NCBI RefSeq assembly: GCF_003065425.1
Contig: NZ_CP026949.1
Location: 2,852,001 to 2,916,000 of the forward strand
Length of the DNA: 64,000 bases
DNA from: Mycetocola zhujimingii
GTDB lineage: Bacteria; Actinomycetota; Actinomycetes; Actinomycetales; Microbacteriaceae
Direction: 5' to 3'
Positions 54,495 through 64,000 of this stretch are shown here, one piece after another; position 1 is the first letter of the stretch, and every line of letters begins with the position of its first letter. A program made the position numbers and the translations under genes. A model generated the notes under the pieces. The model searched no databases. It was given only the letters and a program-made list of their open reading frames with translations, and was not told the DNA's origin.

Positions 54495-54498
<4 letters not shown>

Positions 54499-55877
54499 GA
54501 CAGTGTTCCTTCGGTGTTGGCGCCCGAGAAAAGATCGTGCGCATCGGCAGTGGTAAAGAGTTCCTGGACGATCTCGGCGACGGATGTCGGCGTACCGAAC
54601 CCGCCCGCCTTCGTCACGATGGTGATGCCGTCGGCTTTTCCACCCTCGAGGACCCCGATCGGGATACCCTCGCGAACGGTGTCGCGGACCACCAGTGATT
54701 CGGCGCCGAGCGTGGCGAGCACCGCGCGCGCCCCCTCGCCACCGAGCAGAACAATCGCACCGACGGGGGATTCACTGATGACAGCGTCGGAGATGATCGC
54801 GAGGCTCTGAGCGATGAGATCGGATGCCGGAGCCTTCGACTGGCCCACATCCCGCGCCGGGCGTTCGGACGGTGACGCGATCACGACGACGGCGGGCAGC
54901 TCCGGCGAACCCGCGAGTTCACGCTCGGCCCACGCAGCCGTCGACGCGGGAGTAAGTGCCTGTTCGAGCGTCGGAGTCAGGGTCCGGACGGCGTCGCGCG
55001 GCAGCTGAGCCATCAGCTCATCGACCTGCGCCCGCGACACATCGTGGAGCGAGCTGACGACGACAACGACGCGTTGGATCGCCGCGGTTTCGGCGCTCTC
55101 GGCGTGGCCGTCGGGGTCTACGGTTGCCGCGTCTTCCGATGCCCAGACATGGGACATGGCGATCGCGAGGCCTGCCGCGCCGGTGGGGATCGCCCTCGGG
55201 CCGAGAAGCGCGATCGCCTCGGCCAGAGTGGAGAGATCGGCGTCGGTCACCGCATCCACCGCGACGATTCGCGAGGACACCGCTGCGGCCTGAAGCTGCG
55301 CGGCGTTCTCGGCCGCACTCGCGCTGGTGAGGCGCAGCGCCACGCTGCCGGGGAGCAGCTCAGCGACGGCACTCGTCGTGACGGGCGTCACCGGATCACG
55401 GCCGATCGCCGTGGTGTGAACCCCGGCTCCGTGAACCAGCAGCTGGCCACTCTCAATCGTGCGTCCCATCGCCGGATAGGCCGAGCAGACCACGGCGAGA
55501 GCATCCGGATGACGGACCGACCACGACGACAGCGCGCCGGTGACCTGGTCGATGACCGAGCCGCGCAGTGTCGAGTCGACCTTCACGAAGAGCCGCTCGA
55601 TCCCGGATGCCATCAGCCCGGTCACCGCGAGTGCGGTGCCCTCGTTCGCTGTCTCGGAATCCTGTGCGCGAGCATCCGTAATCACGGCCGTAACCGAACC
55701 CGCCAGCGTGTCAGCCGTACCGGCGGCGGGACTGGTCAGCGCCAACCGCGCCGTCCAGCCGACCCGCGCGAACTGCACGGCGGAGTCGGTGGCACCGGTG
55801 AGGTCGTCGGCGACGATCCCAGCGGGAGCCGCGAGGGTCGTGCGCTGGATGAGAAGCGGGCTGTCGGTCACAGTCAT
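54495..55877 (-). CDS. dtnK: DUF1537 four-carbon acid sugar kinase (D-threonate/D-erythronate kinase)
   Basis: A 460-residue ATP-dependent kinase of the DUF1537 family, shown for several bacteria to phosphorylate four-carbon acid sugars such as D-threonate, D-erythronate or oxo-tetronate. The N-terminal acid-sugar domain reads GIVADDLTGATDSAVQFARV, and the C-terminal nucleotide domain VLLGGEGARAVLATLG and EGIPIGVLEGGKADGITIVT ending in TKAGGFG. The exact substrate is inference; dtnK is used here as the closest symbol. It overlaps both neighbours (kdgT and pdxA2) by 4 bases, so the three genes are one translationally coupled unit. Confidence 0.85.
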
Positions 55878-56956
55878 ACCCCGTCGGTGCTCCGCTTTCG
55901 AGCGGAAGCATCAGCGCTGTCGGAGCCGGACGTGACGGCATCCGCGTTGTCAGAGCCGATCCCCGCGTTCTCAGCCTCGGGGGCGTCGATGCCACCCTCG
56001 CGCTTGAGCACCCAGGCAGCGAGCAGCGGGGCGAGCACCGCGGAGACGAGAACAGCGGATGCCACCTGTGCGGTTGCGACCTCCATGTACGGAGCGAAGG
56101 TCGGGTCGGCGGCGGCGATGATGGCCGGTGTGGCAATCGCGTTTCCTGCGGTCGTCGCTGCAGCGATCCCGATGCCGGACTTGCGGCCGCGGCGCAGGAT
56201 GAAGCGGTAGCCGAAGTAGGCGAGCGTTCCGGTGAAGAGCGTGGCGATCGCGCCGACGACGAGGCCGGAGAGACCGCCGGTGACGACGTTTCCGAGGTTG
56301 ATGCCCGTGCCGAGTGCGAAGGCGAAGAACGGGATGACCATGTTCGGGACCGGACGCATGATCTCGGTCCAGCGCGCATCGAGGTTTCCGACGAGCACGC
56401 CGGCGAGCAGCGGGATGACCGCGGCGAGCAGCAGGGTGAACGGGATGTCGGCGAGGCCGGCAACGCCGAGGAACAGCATGGTGAAGAACGGGCCGTCATT
56501 GATGGCGGATGCCATGTACGCACCGCGGTCGCGGGCGTCACCGTAGCGACCGGTGAAGGCGAGCCAGAGACCACCGTTGCTGTTGTCCATCATGACGATG
56601 AGGGCGAGGATCGAGACGCCGAGGACACCGTCGAGGCCGACGAACTGGCCGAGCAGCACGACGAGCGCTGCCGGGATGATGGACTTCATCAGGAGGATGG
56701 TGCCCGTTGTCGCGAGGACAGGTCCCGACGTCTTGAGGGTGATCTGCATTCCCGTTGCGAAGATCAGAAGTCCGATGAGCGGCAGCGCACTGTCCTTGAA
56801 CAGGGCCGTGGTGAAGTTGCCGAGGTCGAGGAACGCGGGGAAGAACGTTCCGACAATCGAGCCGAGAATGAGCGGGATGAGCATGAGGCCACCCGGGATT
56901 TTGTTCATCCCGTCGAACAGCGGTACTCGGCTCTTGACGTGCGATCCGGCTTCCAT
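55874..56956 (-). CDS. kdgT: KdgT-family acid sugar permease
   Basis: A 360-residue secondary transporter of the 2-keto-3-deoxygluconate permease family with about ten helices. It opens with FDGMNKIPGGLMLIPLILGS and has LIVMMDNSNGGLWLAFTGRY and GDARDRGAYMASAINDGPFF, the family's most conserved part. Its likely cargo is the four-carbon acid sugar used by the kinase and dehydrogenase downstream. The C-terminal 40 residues are an acidic Ser/Ala/Asp tail, not part of the usual permease. AGGAGA precedes the ATG; it is the first gene after the operator-promoter at 56995-57035. Confidence 0.88.
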   Translation of the reverse strand: MEAGSHVKSRVPLFDGMNKIPGGLMLIPLILGSIVGTFFPAFLDLGNFTTALFKDSALPLIGLLIFATGMQITLKTSGPVLATTGTILLMKSIIPAALVVLLGQFVGLDGVLGVSILALIVMMDNSNGGLWLAFTGRYGDARDRGAYMASAINDGPFFTMLFLGVAGLADIPFTLLLAAVIPLLAGVLVGNLDARWTEIMRPVPNMVIPFFAFALGTGINLGNVVTGGLSGLVVGAIATLFTGTLAYFGYRFILRRGRKSGIGIAAATTAGNAIATPAIIAAADPTFAPYMEVATAQVASAVLVSAVLAPLLAAWVLKREGGIDAPEAENAGIGSDNADAVTSGSDSADASARKRSTDGV

Positions 56957-57837: not shown

Positions 57838-60396
57838 TTACGCGGCCAGCTGGGACTCGAACACCCTGGACGTGACGGAGAGCTCGTCTCCGGCGACGCC
57901 CACCTCGATGATCGAGCCGGCGGGGAGCTCGGCGTCGACCATGAGCCCGGCGATCCTGTCCTCAACCTCTCGCTGGATGAGCCTGCGCAACGGGCGAGCA
58001 CCAAACTCGGGCTCGTAGCCGTGCGTGGCGATCCAGTCGACGGCACCATCGCTGACACTCAGCGTCAGTCCCTGCGCGGCGAGCCGCGCGGTGGTCTTCG
58101 CGAGCATCAGGCGAACGATCTCGTGCAGTTGCTCCGGGGTGAGCTTCTGGAAGAGAACGATCTCGTCAATCCGGTTGAGGAACTCGGGACGCATCGCTTC
58201 ACGCAGCTTGCCCATCACCCGGTCGCGCAGCGCCTTCTCCGATCCGAAGCCTGTGCTGTCGTTGGCAGCATCGGCAACGAAGCCGAGGGCGCCGCTCCGG
58301 CTCGCGAGGAACTCGGAGCCGATGTTCGACGTCATGATGATGACCGTGTTGCGGAAGTCGACGGTGCGACCCTGCCCATCGGTCAGACGCCCGTCGTCGA
58401 GCACCTGCAGGAGCAGGTTGAACACGTCGGGGTGCGCCTTCTCGATCTCGTCGAGGAGAACGACCGAGTACGGGTTGCGGCGAACGCGTTCGGTGAGCTG
58501 CCCGGCCTCGTCGTAACCGACGTAGCCCGGAGGAGCACCGACGAGTCGCGACACCGTGTGTCGCTCGCCGAACTCACTCATGTCGAAGCGAACCATGGCC
58601 GAGTCGTCACCGAACAGCGAGAAGGCGAGAGCCTTCGCGAGTTCGGTCTTACCGACACCGGTCGGGCCGAGGAACAGGAAACTGCCCACCGGGCGGTTCG
58701 GGTCCCCCATGCCCGTGCGGTTACGGCGCACGGCCTTCGCGATCGACGTGACGGCGTCATCCTGGCCGATGACCCGCTGGTGCAACTCGGACTCGAGGTG
58801 CCCAAGGCGCTGCCGGTCACTCTGGGTGATCCGGTGTGCCGGGATTCCCGTCGCACGCGAAATGATTTCCGCGATGTGGCCTTCGTCGATAACCGTGTCG
58901 ACAACGGATGCCGTTCCCGACGATTCCGCAGACGCGATTCGCTTGGTCAGCTCCTCGATTTCGTCGCGGATGCGGGAGGCTTCCTCGTACTTCTCGGCCG
59001 CGACAGCCGTGTTCTTCGACGCTTCGAGAACCGCAAGCTGTGCGTGCAGTTCACTCGTGTCGACGACGGGTCCGCGGCGAAGACGCAACCGTGCACCGGC
59101 CTGGTCGATCAGGTCGATCGCCTTGTCCGGCAGGAACCTGTCGGTCACATACCGGGCGGACAGGTCGACGGCGGCCTTGAGCGCCTCGTCGGTGTAGGTC
59201 ACACCGTGGAACTCCTCGTAGCTGCCGCGCAGCCCCTGGAGGATGCGCTCAGCGTCTTCGACACTGGGCTCGTCGACGTGAACGGGCTGGAAGCGACGTT
59301 CGAGAGCCGAGTCCTTCTCGATACGGCGGTACTCCTTGAGCGTCGTCGCACCGATCAGGTGCAGGTCTCCGCGGGCGAGTCGCGGCTTGAGGATGTTTCC
59401 GGCATCCATTCCGCCGCTCTCTCCCCCGCCGCCGGCACCGACAACGGTGTGCAGCTCGTCGATGAAGATGATCAGCTCACCCTTGTGGGTGGTGATCTCG
59501 TCCACGAGCTTCGTGAGTCGCTCTTCGAAGTCACCGCGGTAGCGAGTACCACCGACCATCGACGCGAGGTCGAGCGAGATCAGTCGCTTGTCCTCGAGCA
59601 GGCTCGGCACTTCGTGGTCGACGATCGCTCGCGCGATTCCCTCGACAACAGCGGTCTTACCGACGCCGGCTTCACCGATCAACACTGGGTTGTTCTTGGT
59701 GCGACGAGAGAGAATCTCGAGGGTCTGCGCGATTTCGTCAGCCCGACCGATCACCGGGTCGAGTTCGCCGTTCCGGGCGAGCTCGGTGAGGTCGGTGCCG
59801 AACTGGTCGAGCATCGGGGTGTCACTCGATGCCGCGCCGTTCGGCTGGGCCATCGGCTGCCCGGTGCGGGCGGCCTCGTGAACGGCCTGCAGCGACTGCG
59901 GGGTGACGCCAAAGGACGTCAGCACCTGGCCGGCGATGGCCTCCTGGTTGACGACGAACGCAAAGAAGAGGTGTTCGGGGTCGATGTAGGTCGAACCAAA
60001 AGCACGGGCCACCTGGTGAGCGTCGAGCAGGGCTCGTTGCGCGGCCGACGTGAGCGAGGGAGCGGCCGAAGTCGACCCGTCACTCTTGTCGGGAAGTCGT
60101 TGTTCTGCGGCATCAGCGAGAGCGGCCGGATCGGTACCGATGGCACGGAGAGTGTCCGCGATCGGGGCCGTCTCGACGAGCACACGGAGAATGTGCAGCG
60201 CGTCGACTTCGGTGTGGCCGTGCGCGATCGCGAATCGGGCCGCCTCAGCGAGCACTGCGTGGGTTCGCCGGCTGAGCAGCCTGGTCATGTCGACGCTGCG
60301 TCCCGACTGAGCGGAGCGCTGTCCCTGCAAATAACGAGCCAGGAACTCGTCGAACGATTCGCTGCCGGAGCCGGCAGGACCGAAGAATGTAGGCAA
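57838..60396 (-). CDS. ClpC-like ATP-dependent unfoldase (Hsp100 family)
   Basis: A Clp/Hsp100 AAA+ ATPase of 852 residues. Two Clp-N repeats occupy residues about 38-175. The first AAA module has Walker A GEAGVGKT near residue 245; the second has GPTGVGKTEL near 590. A short coiled UVR-type middle segment (AAEKYEEASRIRDEIEELTK) replaces the long ClpB M-domain, and GALGFVADA near 715 is a candidate ClpP-binding loop, so it is ClpC-like rather than ClpB. The start is TTG at 60396 with AGGAGG five bases upstream. Two HAIR operators for HspR lie upstream, so heat shock control is expected. Confidence 0.9.
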   Translation of the reverse strand: MPTFFGPAGSGSESFDEFLARYLQGQRSAQSGRSVDMTRLLSRRTHAVLAEAARFAIAHGHTEVDALHILRVLVETAPIADTLRAIGTDPAALADAAEQRLPDKSDGSTSAAPSLTSAAQRALLDAHQVARAFGSTYIDPEHLFFAFVVNQEAIAGQVLTSFGVTPQSLQAVHEAARTGQPMAQPNGAASSDTPMLDQFGTDLTELARNGELDPVIGRADEIAQTLEILSRRTKNNPVLIGEAGVGKTAVVEGIARAIVDHEVPSLLEDKRLISLDLASMVGGTRYRGDFEERLTKLVDEITTHKGELIIFIDELHTVVGAGGGGESGGMDAGNILKPRLARGDLHLIGATTLKEYRRIEKDSALERRFQPVHVDEPSVEDAERILQGLRGSYEEFHGVTYTDEALKAAVDLSARYVTDRFLPDKAIDLIDQAGARLRLRRGPVVDTSELHAQLAVLEASKNTAVAAEKYEEASRIRDEIEELTKRIASAESSGTASVVDTVIDEGHIAEIISRATGIPAHRITQSDRQRLGHLESELHQRVIGQDDAVTSIAKAVRRNRTGMGDPNRPVGSFLFLGPTGVGKTELAKALAFSLFGDDSAMVRFDMSEFGERHTVSRLVGAPPGYVGYDEAGQLTERVRRNPYSVVLLDEIEKAHPDVFNLLLQVLDDGRLTDGQGRTVDFRNTVIIMTSNIGSEFLASRSGALGFVADAANDSTGFGSEKALRDRVMGKLREAMRPEFLNRIDEIVLFQKLTPEQLHEIVRLMLAKTTARLAAQGLTLSVSDGAVDWIATHGYEPEFGARPLRRLIQREVEDRIAGLMVDAELPAGSIIEVGVAGDELSVTSRVFESQLAA

Positions 60397-60502: not shown

Positions 60503-61390
60503 TCAGTAGTCGACGCGGCGGCCGAACGTGCGGGGAGCGCGCGCCCGTGGAGAGCAGAACGCCACATCGCGGAGCCGCACCATCTCGTGCGGCTGGAGTC
60601 CGGCGGAGGAAGCGAAGTCGTCGAGCGAGGCGAAGCCGCCGCGCCTGGTCCGGTCGGCGACGACAGTCCTCGCGCGGTCGCGATCCATGCCGGGGAGCTT
60701 CGCCAGCGCACGCTGGTTCGCGGTGTTCACGTCGACCTGCTCCACCTCATCCTCTGCCACCTGGAGAGGAGCACTCCGTCCTGCTGACGGTCCGGAAACC
60801 TCGGAATCCGCGACTTCAGCATCCGCCCGCGACCGGGTCGTCGCCGTACTGCGCTTTGCTCGCGTGCGACGTTTGCGGCCGGCTGGCGGCGCCGCCGCTG
60901 CGGGCGCTGACTCATCGACGTAATCGGCCTTCGATGTTCCCATCTCGCCGAGCAACCGCTCGGCTTCCTCCGGCATCGCTTCGCTCTCGCGCGTCGCGGT
61001 GGAGCTCCGTCCCTTTTTCGCGAGCCTGGGCCGACCGACGACGGTGAGGCCGGCCTCGCGCCGCGACCACAACAATCTGAGCCACGCTTCGTTGACGATC
61101 AGCCCGTGCAGCAGGGCGACGAGAGAGAGGCCGCCCCTCGCAACATCTCCCGCCGCACCGTCCGGGATGTGTACGACGAGTGCAGCGACCCCGTACACGA
61201 CTGCCGCGATCTGCCAGGAACGCTTTCGGCCGATGAGGGCAAGCACGCCGAACCCGATCCAGGCCAGCGCACCGGCCGGCGCAAGGAGCAGCAACAGCCA
61301 CGAACTCGCCCCCAGCATCCACCGGCGGGACGGTTCGTTCTCCTCGGTCGACGGCGCCGCTCGCCGCCCACGCTTCCTGGCCTGTGCCAT
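60503..61390 (-). CDS. Membrane protein with C-terminal helix-hairpin-helix domain
   Basis: A 295-residue protein: basic N-terminus, two or three hydrophobic helices at residues about 28-95 (WLLLLLAPAGALAWIGFGVL and WQIAAVVYGVAALVVHI), a disordered Ala/Ser/Arg-rich middle, and a ComEA-like helix-hairpin-helix domain near residues 220-275 (VDVNTANQRALAKLPGMDRD). The HhH should bind DNA or a protein partner on the cytoplasmic side. It follows the DUF1257-like gene by 6 bases, so it belongs to the same operon as the AAA ATPase system. Function unknown. Confidence 0.8.
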   Translation of the reverse strand: MAQARKRGRRAAPSTEENEPSRRWMLGASSWLLLLLAPAGALAWIGFGVLALIGRKRSWQIAAVVYGVAALVVHIPDGAAGDVARGGLSLVALLHGLIVNEAWLRLLWSRREAGLTVVGRPRLAKKGRSSTATRESEAMPEEAERLLGEMGTSKADYVDESAPAAAAPPAGRKRRTRAKRSTATTRSRADAEVADSEVSGPSAGRSAPLQVAEDEVEQVDVNTANQRALAKLPGMDRDRARTVVADRTRRGGFASLDDFASSAGLQPHEMVRLRDVAFCSPRARAPRTFGRRVDY

Positions 61391-61396
61391 CGTTCG

Positions 61397-61894
61397 CTAC
61401 GCGTCCGTGCGGACGTTGAGCACCATGGTCACTGTGTCATCGCTTTCCCGGGTCTCCGACACGAGATCGAATCCGGCTCCGTCAGCGCGCATCCGGATTT
61501 TCTCGGCGACCGCCTGCTGCACCCGTGCGGCGTATTCCGCGTCGAGCCGCTCCACGAGTTCGGTCGCACTGGCGACGCTAACGGAATGGCCTTCAACGTG
61601 GGCCTCCCAGACGCCATCGTCGGTGAGCGACATCGTCAGCACCGCACCGTCGACCTCTGCGGTGACGCGGGTCTGCGATACCTCGACGGCCGTCGCACCG
61701 ATCCCGGACAGCGCGTCAGCGAGCAACGTGCTGTCCTTCATGCGGGTGCGTACCCTCACCTCCGGTGACGATCCGGATCCCGAGTTCACCGCCCGGCCGT
61801 TGGCCGCGGTGATCACGGCGCCGAGTGCGCCGACCCCGCCGGCGGCGGCTGCCGCTCCCAGCGCGAGGGGGAGGAGGACAAGAGTGACACTCAT
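61397..61894 (-). CDS. DUF1257/Ycf35-like protein
   Basis: A 165-residue protein starting MSVTLVLLPLALGAAAAAGG, so with a hydrophobic N-terminal helix, then a Gly/Ser linker and a mixed domain (VRVRTRMKDSTLLADALSGI, TRVTAEVDGAVLTMSLTDDG, VQQAVAEKIRMRADGAGFDL). The domain resembles DUF1257 (Ycf35), where MKDxxLLxxAL-type starts and a C-terminal helix-strand are typical. The ATG overlaps the radical SAM stop by 4 bases. Ycf35 is a plastid and cyanobacterial protein of unknown role. The likeness is from memory of the family and should be checked. Confidence 0.65.
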   Translation of the reverse strand: MSVTLVLLPLALGAAAAAGGVGALGAVITAANGRAVNSGSGSSPEVRVRTRMKDSTLLADALSGIGATAVEVSQTRVTAEVDGAVLTMSLTDDGVWEAHVEGHSVSVASATELVERLDAEYAARVQQAVAEKIRMRADGAGFDLVSETRESDDTVTMVLNVRTDA

Positions 61895-62619
61895 GCGCGT
61901 CTCGCTTTCATTACGGGGCGGTCCTGGCGGGGACCGAGGTCGTGGAGCAGGTCTTCGAGCGCCGCGGCATCCGCCCAGCCGTTCACATCGATGCGTCCGT
62001 CGGGACGAATGCGGATCTCGAGTCTGTCGAGCCCGCCGTCGCGTTCGATCGCGGCGACGTCGTCGGCATACGCGGGCGTGAGGGCACGGATGCCCTGGTT
62101 GGTCGAGCCGAGCCACGGCCTCACCGGGTCGGGCTGGTCACGCAGGTAAGGACCGTCGATGAGCAGGTCGGTTGCGGCGAGCAGGCGAGAGATATCTGGC
62201 CGTGACGCGGCCCACGCGGTGAGCCGGTCGAGCGGATATCCCGTGAAGGTCATGACCGTGAGGCCGGCCGCACGGAAGGCCTCGGCGATCGTCGCGAGCG
62301 CGGCGGCCTGGTCGAAGGGTTCGCCGCCGAGAAGCGTGATTCCCTCGACGCCGGCGCCGAGGGCATCCGCCACAAAGCTCTCAGCGAGCTCAGCCGGATT
62401 CCCGATCAACCCGCCGCGCTCAGCCCAGAGCTGCGGGTTGAAGCACCCGGGGCAGCGCACGCTGCAGCCCTGGACCCACAGCGCTGAGCGCAGGCCTGGG
62501 CCCTCCGCCGCGGTGCTCGGGAGAAACCGCGACCAGCGGAGCGCGTCGGCTGCACGCTCGAGCGGCTCGACCGTGCCGAGCTCGCCCCCGGCTGTCCGGG
62601 GCGCGGCGAGCAGGGTCAT
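61891..62619 (-). CDS. Compact radical SAM protein (activase-like)
   Basis: A 242-residue radical SAM enzyme with the [4Fe-4S] motif CSVRCPGC (Cys52, Cys56, Cys59; CX3CX2C) and a GGEPF motif near residue 100 (ITLLGGEPFDQAAALATIAE). The size and the RxLxVxGCSVRCPGCFN style resemble glycyl-radical-enzyme activases and NrdG-like proteins, but no glycyl radical enzyme is in the window. ATG 62619 overlaps the DUF2997-like stop by 4 bases; longer starts would run into that gene. The target of the radical chemistry is unknown. Confidence 0.85.
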   Translation of the reverse strand: MTLLAAPRTAGGELGTVEPLERAADALRWSRFLPSTAAEGPGLRSALWVQGCSVRCPGCFNPQLWAERGGLIGNPAELAESFVADALGAGVEGITLLGGEPFDQAAALATIAEAFRAAGLTVMTFTGYPLDRLTAWAASRPDISRLLAATDLLIDGPYLRDQPDPVRPWLGSTNQGIRALTPAYADDVAAIERDGGLDRLEIRIRPDGRIDVNGWADAAALEDLLHDLGPRQDRPVMKARRA

Positions 62620-62828
62620 CTGGCGCCATCCCAGTTGTGCGACGTGCTCTCCTGCTGCGCCGCGGTCTGGGAATACGCTTCGGTGAACGACGACGAGGTC
62701 GCCTCGGCGTCGAGCAGGTTCTCGAGCACAGAGATGTAGTCGAGGCATTCCTGGCCGTACATGCCGATGGTTTCGGCGTGCACGGTTCCGTCGGGGCGCA
62801 CCTGCACGATGAGCTGCTTGTCGGTCAT
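62616..62828 (-). CDS. DUF2997-like small protein
   Basis: A 70-residue protein starting MTDKQLIVQVRPDGTVHAET and continuing IGMYGQECLDYISVLENLLD, then a polar tail. The first half fits DUF2997 (I-x-I-x-x-DG-x-V-x-x-E-T-x-G-x-x-G-x-x-C): a two-strand and helix module with an absolutely placed Gly and Cys. In cyanobacteria such proteins occur with Ycf35. The stop overlaps the radical SAM start. The Cys could be a modification or cluster site (inference). Confidence 0.7.
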   Translation of the reverse strand: MTDKQLIVQVRPDGTVHAETIGMYGQECLDYISVLENLLDAEATSSSFTEAYSQTAAQQESTSHNWDGAR

Positions 62829-62899
62829 TCGTGGTCCTCGTTGTCCTGATGGTCAAATGCTGGTGGTGTGATGGGGCGAAACGGATGCCGTCGGCCGGC

Positions 62900-64000
62900 C
62901 TAGAAGTCGACGGTGCGCCCGCCGCGGCGGCTCGACAGTCCGGCACCGACGGAGTCGCCGGCACCGACCAGCGCGTCTTCATCGGCGTCGATGTCTTCGC
63001 TGCCCGTCGCGCGAACGGCGCGGACTTCGGCCCACGCGCGGATCGACTGAACTTCTTCCGCCTGGGTCACGGCGAGCGGGATCATGTTGGTGACGGCTTC
63101 GACGAGGTCATCGACGCTCACCTGGCGGCGCTCGGCGAATGCCTCGTAGAGCGCGACGATCACGGCCTGCTCGATCTCGGCACCCGAGTAGTTCTCGCTC
63201 GCCGCGACGAGTGTGTCGACGGCCTGGGGCCCGAGCGCGGAGAGACCGTTGTGCTCCGTAGCGTTCGACGCGAGCTGGATTCTCCAGATCGCGCGCCGCT
63301 CGACGGCCGTTGGCAGGTCGACGAAGAAGATCTCGTCGAACCGGCCCTTGCGCATGAACTCCGGCGGCAACGAGTCGATGTTGTTCGCCGTGGCGACAAC
63401 GAACACCGGATGCTTCTTCTCCTGCATCCAGGTCAGGAAGTATCCGAAGACGCGCGCTGTCGTGCCCGAGTCACCGCTGCCGGTCGTGTTGGAGAATCCC
63501 TTTTCGATCTCGTCGACCCAGAGGATGCACGGCGAAACAGCCTCGGCGGTTGCGAGTGCATTGCGGAGGTTCTGCTCCGAGGATCCGACCAGACCGGAGA
63601 AGATGCGGCCGATGTCGAGGCGGAGGAGGGGCAGTCCCCACGACGCGGCCATCGCCTTGGCGGTGAGGGATTTTCCACAGCCGGGAACACCGGTGATGAG
63701 TACACCCTTGGGCGACGGCAGCCCGAATTCCTCCGCCTCGGCCAGCCAGGATCCGTTGCGCCGGGAAAGCCAGCGCTTGAGGTTGTTGAGCCCGCCAACG
63801 CTGTCGAGGTCGAGCGCCTTCGTGACGAAATCGAGCAGGCCTGACTTGCTGACGATCTGGCGCTTCTCGTCGAGCACAACGGTGATATCACTCGAGGTGA
63901 GGTGCCCGTCGTTGACCATGGCACGGGCGAACGCGTTCTCCGCCTCGCTCATGGTCAGGCCGCGGGCCGCCTGGACGAGACTCTCCAGGGTCTTGGCGTC
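62900..64000 (-). CDS. AAA ATPase, Ycf46-like (partial, N-terminus beyond right edge)
   Basis: The visible 366 residues belong to a classical AAA ATPase; the frame continues past 64000, so the N-terminal part is missing. Walker A is [15 protein letters not shown], Walker [12 protein letters not shown], sensor 1 VFVVATANN, and the arginine finger [16 protein letters not shown]. Before the P-loop, [20 protein letters not shown] and [16 protein letters not shown] match the plastid/cyanobacterial Ycf46 family. The C-terminus ends in a disordered Gly/Arg-rich tail. It heads the operon with the DUF2997-like, radical SAM, DUF1257-like and HhH genes; the next gene starts 71 bases later. Confidence 0.82.

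Follow-up and report, generated by a model that had tools for sequence, protein, structure and literature searches.

What could bind a AAA ATPase, two small proteins of the DUF2997 and DUF1257 type, a radical S-adenosylmethionine (SAM) protein and a membrane protein with a helix-hairpin-helix (HhH) domain into one operon? The question is raised by a window of 64,000 nucleotides from the actinobacterium Mycetocola zhujimingii (contig NZ_CP026949.1; G000:C1:2852001-2916000, in a genome, G000, of 3.19 Mb), where all five genes are present on the minus strand at 60503-64000. These genes are inherited together, and two of their products, the ATPase and the HhH protein, share a C-terminal tail of five residues that is found on very few other proteins. 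The tail common to a motor and its membrane partner offers a first experimental handle on a family of unknown function. Genes for Ycf46 and Ycf35, the plastid names of such an ATPase and of DUF1257, appear in the gene lists of many algal plastid genomes, and cyanobacteria and viral contigs have related loci that combine the ATPase with DUF1257. The literature searched, which left most subscription papers outside its coverage, held no mechanism for Ycf46 or Ycf35 and no description of this operon or its tail.

The window ATPase ends in ..RGGRTVDF and the HhH protein in ..FGRRVDY, both of the form R-x-[VIL]-D-[FYLIV]. This tail was first noticed in the window and in its plasmid and phage relatives, and was counted in loci from an ATPase-alignment scan (the best 80 of 560 cellular loci and the best 80 of 112 viral contigs). 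In a first count, based on greedy open reading frames (ORFs) with an ATPase in 69 of the 80 cell loci, a looser expression matched 34 of 69 ATPases and 37 of 352 same-strand neighbours within four genes, against 6 of 320 ORFs farther along the same strand and 4 of 420 on the opposite one. The loci of 33 tail-positive ATPases in that set contain DUF1257 in 32 cases, DUF2997 in 31 and a radical SAM gene in 29. A six-frame count over 76 loci, with contig-edge and duplicate rows dropped, replaced the first, and its final expression, R-x-[VILM]-[DE]-[VILFMYW]-stop, was chosen after the results of the looser one were known. By this count the tail is carried by 48 of the 50 HhH ORFs near an ATPase, plus a single HhH protein on the opposite strand (L054), and the two misses are near-variants (..KRMVDMQ and ..GRRVD). 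It stands on the ATPase in 33 of 42 loci with a radical SAM gene and in 6 of 34 without one. No radical SAM (0/41), DUF2997 (0/45) or DUF1257-like protein (0/60) of the fetched cell loci has it. Among other ORFs it appears in 2 of 1062, both in such operons: a transmembrane (TM) protein encoded immediately before the ATPase on its upstream side (L031) and an operon-encoded TM nuclease of the Mrr type (Mrr_cat; L048).

Nine of the ATPases that fail the final expression belong to radical SAM loci: those of L055, L060, L064 and L085 have the tail followed by one or two extra residues, that of L050 is cut by the contig end, that of L062 ends in RKLYF, and those of L027, L030 and L061 have no tail. 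Where radical SAM is absent from the locus, 28 ATPases fail, and 15 of these are cyanobacterial and end in [QK]R[LM]EF. In positional counts, where the expression itself dictates R at -5 and [DE] at -2, the 57 tail-bearing HhH ORFs from all loci show [GE] at -6 in 49 cases and favour D over E at -2 in 55, and the majority reading of the 41 tail-bearing ATPases among 47 loci with HhH is R-G-G-R-T-[LVI]-D-F. A linker of 10-34 residues separates the HhH domain from the tail. The N-terminal parts of tailed HhH proteins align at E<1e-3 in 203 of 1485 pairs, and the tail is kept regardless.

The tail is also selective within genomes. In 20 relatives, including the genome under study, 30 of 31 HHH_3 matches were examined; the tail is present on the 4 module copies and on none of the 26 others. 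The 3.19 Mb of the window's genome contain three instances of the pattern R-x-[NTN codon]-D-[FY]-stop, two in module genes and one in a housekeeping enzyme, which we take from its sequence to be 5-formyltetrahydrofolate cyclo-ligase. A second pattern, G-R-x-[NTN]-[DE]-[NTN]-stop, has no occurrence in this genome and cannot match the module genes, which end in F and Y.

Co-inheritance is the other observation. Extension beyond position 64000, as suggested when the window was first read from its letters alone, completes the ATPase at 542 amino acids (L002:9900-11528; the start lies 528 bases beyond the window end) and reveals a sixth gene upstream, SEC (L002:11525-12424, 299 amino acids), which overlaps the ATPase gene by 4 bp just outside the window. 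Its product has one hydrophobic segment, is membrane-anchored or secreted, and gives no match in a Pfam search at E 0.05. All six genes and a downstream ClpC-like gene are kept in two congeners (G001 and G002; 86-88% identity in the ATPase). A member of another genus (G006) has all six, with two SEC-like copies and an HhH protein alignable in its C-terminal part only; the ClpC-like gene was not found in the 16-kb G006 stretch. DUF2997 above its cut-off and the ATPase N-domain occur in the same 4 of 59 relatives (G000, G001, G002 and G006, own genome included), a fifth DUF2997 match (G016) being weak and below the cut-off, and across the phylum DUF2997 passes the cut-off in 2 of 396 genomes, again counting the genome under study. 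Plasmids of Rhodococcus (L014) and Paenarthrobacter (L015) carry the series ATPase - DUF1257-like - DUF2997 - HhH - 4Fe-4S. The full five-gene content, without the sixth gene, is kept in loci of Bacillota, Melainabacteria, Bacteroidota, Fusobacteriota and Planctomycetota.

A FastTree phylogeny built from 122 ATPases groups the HhH loci into a single clade (49 rows, of which 47 have HhH; support 99) that spans Actinomycetota, these five groups and one Methanosphaera metagenome-assembled genome (MAG), although single members of the clade could reflect MAG contamination. The Methanosphaera contig ends beside the ATPase gene, with only the HhH gene visible. One clade member is a cyanobacterium (L061) in which a radical SAM gene is present and HhH was not found. 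Preservation of the gene content in G001, G002 and G006 and in other phyla is more than chance would give, and supports the view that the ATPase, DUF2997, DUF1257-like, radical SAM and HhH genes form one co-inherited unit. The sequence-only reading, which had taken five tightly packed leftward genes for one unit and expected them to recur together elsewhere, is borne out in this respect by coordinates, by all-or-none presence in relatives and by the five-gene set of other phyla.

The layout of the operon is given in Table 1. The listed ORFs of the radical SAM and DUF1257-like genes are overlong at their 5' ends, and the starts compatible with their neighbours are 62619 and 61894; the latter makes the DUF1257-like gene overlap the radical SAM gene by 4 bp. 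Gaps of 6 bp and 71 bp precede the starts of the HhH and DUF2997 genes, respectively. A promoter and terminator scan of the operon gave nothing above shuffles.

Table 1. Features of the operon and its downstream neighbour, in window coordinates
Feature	Coordinates	Strand	Description	Basis or remark
Ycf46/Cdc48-like AAA ATPase	62900..64000	-	C-terminal 366 codons; Walker A GVPGCGKS	Pfam and profile; Walker A read from sequence
ATPase C-terminal tail	62900..62917	-	R-T-V-D-F-stop (..RRGGRTVDF)	Family statistics
DUF2997 protein	62616..62828	-	70 amino acids; near-invariant G-x-x-C (GQEC)	PF11211
NrdG-like radical SAM protein	61891..62619	-	242 amino acids; CX3CX2C (CSVRCPGC), GGEP	4-bp overlap with DUF2997
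DUF1257-like protein	61397..61894	-	165 amino acids; hydrophobic N-terminus	Profile-profile link; iterative hidden Markov model (HMM)
Membrane-anchored HhH protein	60503..61390	-	295 amino acids; two hydropathy-predicted TM segments; ComEA-like HhH near C-terminus	
HhH protein C-terminal tail	60503..60520	-	R-R-V-D-Y-stop (..TFGRRVDY)	
ClpC/ClpB-like ATPase	57838..60396	-		106 bp downstream of operon; not counted in module

The ATPase matches the AAA family in Pfam (E 9.4e-31), and its profile finds Cdc48/p97 as the best matches among solved structures. Unlike Cdc48/p97, it has a Walker A motif in one AAA domain only, and no Cdc48 N domain was matched. Alignment with cyanobacterial copies is full-length at ~43-46% identity. 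These copies, presumably Ycf46, lie mostly beside DUF1257 genes and consist of an N-domain and a AAA domain, as does the window ATPase, whose operon includes a DUF1257-like gene; the initial naming of the protein as Ycf46-like is supported. The first 236 residues show weak similarity (E 0.0011, probability 20%) to the stretch between Walker B and the lid in the AAA domain of the same protein, which is suggestive of a dead AAA domain without Walker A. A search of solved structures with the N-domain gave nothing significant.

The two small proteins differ in how readily they can be named. DUF2997 matches PF11211 (E 4.6e-12, 46.1 bits against a gathering score of 24.1), as had been proposed, and its G-x-x-C motif is retained in 81 of 83 copies, whether or not a radical SAM gene lies close by. 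The DUF1257/Ycf35 identity proposed for the other protein stands only as remote homology. It has no match to Pfam DUF1257 (PF06868) at E up to 1 and none in NCBIfam, whereas in related loci one phage and one cyanobacterial neighbour do match DUF1257 in Pfam. Profile-profile comparison gives a probability of 92.5% for the link between the actinobacterial copies (A5) and canonical DUF1257 (A6) and of 97.7% for that between A6 and the other copies from HhH-type loci (A7); A5 and A7 are linked at 99.5%. Iterative HMMs started from annotated DUF1257 and from the actinobacterial copies gave 79 matches each, of which 56 are common. By these profiles the protein is a remote DUF1257 relative. A natural fusion of DUF1257 and DUF2997 domains occurs in a viral contig (L104:6197-6775). 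Searches of solved structures with DUF1257 and with DUF2997 found nothing significant.

The membrane HhH protein matches HHH_3 (E 3.1e-10) and, at E 8.7e-07, the comEA model, where its 29 bits lie below the curated cut-off of 152.35. Like ComEA proteins it combines a TM segment with an HHH_3 domain. Unlike them, the module proteins have mostly replaced the glycines of the hairpin: the second Gly survives in only 4 of the 46 module domains that were scored (13 of 59 unscored), while all 22 ComEA-like controls, read by eye, keep it, and the 26 HHH_3 proteins examined outside the module in the 20 relatives are without the tail. Because the hairpin Gly is mostly lost relative to these controls, the domain comparison favours protein binding over DNA binding. 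The earlier suggestion of a DNA or membrane link is retained for the predicted membrane anchor and weakened for DNA. Identification of the protein as ComEA itself was rejected on the degraded-looking hairpins and on the presence of a separate ComEA-like protein (L186) in the genome. In one locus (L046:2296-7335), seven tandem HhH genes, all ending in ERx[VIL]D[LIF], lie upstream of the radical SAM and ATPase genes, as if the tagged partner had perhaps diversified there.

The radical SAM protein is similar to NrdG over most of its length and shares with it CX3CX2C, GGEP and W-x-G-S-x-N-Q, as known from Escherichia coli NrdG. It matches Fer4_12 (E 8.9e-30) and scores 84.8 bits against the NrdG equivalog (TIGR02491), below the cut-off of 126.1. 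The CX3CX2C motif is present in 57 of 59 family members, the window protein included. NrdD was not found in the genome: NRDD and Gly_radical give no match in G000 at E <= 0.01. Since the protein is also the genome's sole Fer4_12 match, it is an orphan activase-like enzyme in its own genome. The earlier label of radical SAM activase is apt for the sequence and lacks its counterpart, as neither NrdD nor a glycyl-radical domain turned up. An activase-like radical enzyme without a classical target found in the genome points to a new protein substrate.

Viral loci provide a separate look at the tail. DUF1257 or DUF2997 is carried by 29 of 75 viral contigs with a related ATPase, and in these 29 loci neighbours within six genes resemble their own ATPase in the tail 7 times, a number that none of 300 permutations reaches (mean 1.0, maximum 5); sister contigs among them are not independent. 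The clear pairs are SRAATLDL with SRAAMLEL and SRASVLEL (L132), FDDIEI with FADIEL (L168), and GRRIDA with GRVIDIE on a DUF3150 protein (L150), and those of L152, L160 and L182 are weak. A radical SAM gene is present in L132 and L168, and none was found in L150. The rows L120, L132, L140, L150 and L168 with phage tails are scattered in the FastTree tree and need four changes.

Taken together, the operon may encode a membrane-associated remodelling machine built on a Cdc48-like ATPase, with the tails of the ATPase and the HhH protein docking on the same receptor. This proposal is tentative and is judged to have somewhat less than an even chance. The ATPase would consist of an apparently dead N-terminal AAA domain followed by an active one, and both it and the membrane HhH protein would present [GE]-R-x-[VIL]-D-[FYLIVW]-COOH on a short flexible linker. 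Both tails would dock on one receptor, for which the DUF1257/DUF2997 pair is the likeliest candidate, and the ATPase could in this way be recruited to, or exchanged at, the membrane HhH protein, and the NrdG-like enzyme probably modifies a component of the machine. The tail behaves like a short docking motif in its near-restriction to the motor and its partners, its flexible linker and its persistence while the partner changes. The C-terminal tail of p97, which binds PUB domains, and the HbYX motif of PAN are analogies.

Several observations weigh against this proposal. The ATPases of two HhH loci (L027 and L030) have lost the tail, which indicates that it is not strictly required on the motor; the L027 HhH protein keeps its own. 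Five phage ATPases (L022, L127, L146, L147 and L158) are tailed in loci where DUF1257 and DUF2997 were not found, which argues against the pair being the sole receptor; as no radical SAM gene was found there either, the receptor could also be the ATPase N-domain. Most viral loci have no tail pair, and the idea of a dead first domain draws on the single weak profile match (probability 20%) given above. Finally, a radical SAM gene was not found in cyanobacterial Ycf46-type loci or in most viral loci, which makes the enzyme an accessory.

The same tail can be read in other ways. It could be a substrate tag that the ATPase grips on the HhH protein in order to extract or unfold this partner, with the tail of the motor serving as an inhibitory pseudosubstrate until displaced. 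An extreme C-terminal tail on such a linker, together with a Cdc48-like motor, fits unfoldase substrates, as do the seven tandem tagged proteins of L046, the tagged TM Mrr-type nuclease and TPR protein of L048 and a GYF_2-HhH protein (L044). However, the other main tail carrier is the ATPase, whose tail has an extra conserved RGGR and is not a degraded copy, and no protease was recognised in the conserved unit. Because the ATPase itself carries the tail, a shared receptor is simpler than a degradation tag, and the tag reading is considered unlikely. A quite unlikely alternative makes the tail the target of the radical SAM enzyme, which would modify the C-terminal end of the ATPase, of the HhH protein or of both, with the GG in ..RGGRTVDF as one candidate site. 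Characterised activases work close to the C-terminus of the target protein, next to an Arg, and the enzyme is an orphan in its genome. In tailed ATPases of HhH loci Gly occupies -6 in 41 of 41 and -7 in 37 of 41, while ATPases from loci without radical SAM, such as the cyanobacterial ..YQR[LM]EF, have no GG. With two of the three clear phage pairs (L132 and L168) in radical SAM loci, this reading gains slightly and docking loses slightly. Yet the third pair, L150, has no radical SAM gene that could be found, the GG tail is absent from radical SAM loci in which HhH was not found (L016, L018, L061, L062, L064 and L085) and from viral radical SAM loci (L116, L120, L132, L137, L168, L174 and L175), and HhH tails have Gly at -6 in just 29 of 57. 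A tie of the tail to radical SAM alone was weakened in the same way, as radical SAM loci without HhH lack the canonical tail and some loci without radical SAM have one. A combination of these ideas, in which the tail is a C-terminal address tag that assembles the ATPase with varying partners through a DUF1257/DUF2997 reader and becomes, where the radical SAM enzyme acts on it, a radical-modified and switchable docking signal, is regarded as improbable. Its partners would range from membrane HhH proteins to the TPR protein and TM Mrr-type nuclease of a single genome and a DUF3150 protein in one phage.

Readings that look away from the tail fare no better. The sequence-only reading had the radical SAM protein modify DUF2997 at its Cys or Gly while the ATPase loads or remodels that target, and the 4-bp overlap of the two genes and the near-invariant G-x-x-C could be cited for it. 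The motif is, however, kept just as well in copies, phage or cellular, whose loci yielded no radical SAM gene, so that radical SAM cannot be the sole reason for its conservation; as worded, the idea is unsupported, and it is held to be decidedly improbable. An anti-phage defence system would account for the patchy presence in relatives (4 of 59) and the plasmid carriage, and the ATPase region gives matches to IetA models, with weak ones to TRIP13 and mad8. Against this, the IetA matches are confined to the AAA region, the only match among the other tested proteins is a weak one of pVip to the radical SAM core, the ATPase occurs with DUF1257 in cyanobacteria, and viral contigs themselves carry related ATPases, including the 29 of 75 with DUF1257 or DUF2997. 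IetA works with a subtilisin-like partner, IetS, and no protease family is among the Pfam matches of the five window proteins. Defence is a very improbable function. A role in DNA uptake or DNA binding, in a system akin to ComEA competence, seems barely credible: HHH_3 is matched above its cut-off and comEA weakly below its own, but the genome has the separate protein L186 and the hairpin contrasts with the 22 controls.

Cyanobacteria and plastids also offer close comparisons. Ycf46 (slr0374) and Ycf35 resemble the operon in that a related ATPase lies mostly directly beside a DUF1257 gene, and the Ycf46-type ATPases have a tail of similar kind, ..[QK]R[LM]EF; unlike the operon, these loci had no radical SAM or HhH partner found nearby. 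In Synechocystis, the cluster DUF2997 - ycf35 - fed7 likewise places DUF2997, DUF1257 and an iron-sulfur protein side by side, whereas the ferredoxin Fed7 replaces the radical SAM protein and the cluster as printed has no HhH gene (PMC4284462). The slr0373-slr0374-slr0376 operon is reported to react to shortage of iron, sulfur or nitrogen, to salt, to high light and to oxidative stress, and loss of slr0374 to lower EcaB activity (PMC7496141, for the latter citing Jiang 2015). Whether red algal plastids have ycf35 and ycf46 is linked to marine or freshwater habitat (PMC5940233), and an slr0374 peptide is listed in a table of a disulfide/redox study (PMC13214033).

Related ATPases also turn up in other settings. 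In three loci of Treponema/Spirochaetales (L016, L064 and L085), radical SAM and ATPase genes stand beside genes that resemble phage-tail or contractile-injection genes, with DUF2997 in L064 and L085. An annotated phage baseplate assembly protein V adjoins the ATPase in L016, the neighbours in L064 and L085 being judged by sequence look, and the three ATPases end in RKLEM, RQLELNK and RKIEMK, respectively. Ten large viral contigs (L108, L110, L111, L114, L118, L122, L126, L131, L138 and L144) share this ATPase type within a recurring block of ORFs of ~330, 90, 240 and 280 amino acids, the ATPase, and ORFs of 265, 520 and 210 amino acids; their C-termini are acidic (..EEDL, ..DEEL and similar), and DUF1257 and DUF2997 were not found. 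A separate cassette on a Comamonas plasmid (L019) and in the Streptococcus satellite phage Javan368 (L020) pairs a related ATPase with a protein of ~580 amino acids that has hydrophobic segments, and the L020 pair, ending in RKVLV and RKIKI, looks like another case of tail sharing. In Mycobacterium phage Catdawg (L022) the ATPase gp97 ends in KVRVLDL and the neighbouring gp95 holds internal GRAIDF and GYALDF, and in three loci without radical SAM (L063, L066 and L094) partner genes begin with RF[DE]xLE-type motifs, like an internal copy of the ATPase tail. Such internal copies were left uncounted, chance matches inside proteins being common. Elsewhere in the window, at 54495-56956, a 460-amino-acid ORF overlaps by 4 bp a 360-amino-acid ORF with nine TM segments, and the two look, by sequence alone, like a sugar-acid kinase and a keto-deoxygluconate-type permease.

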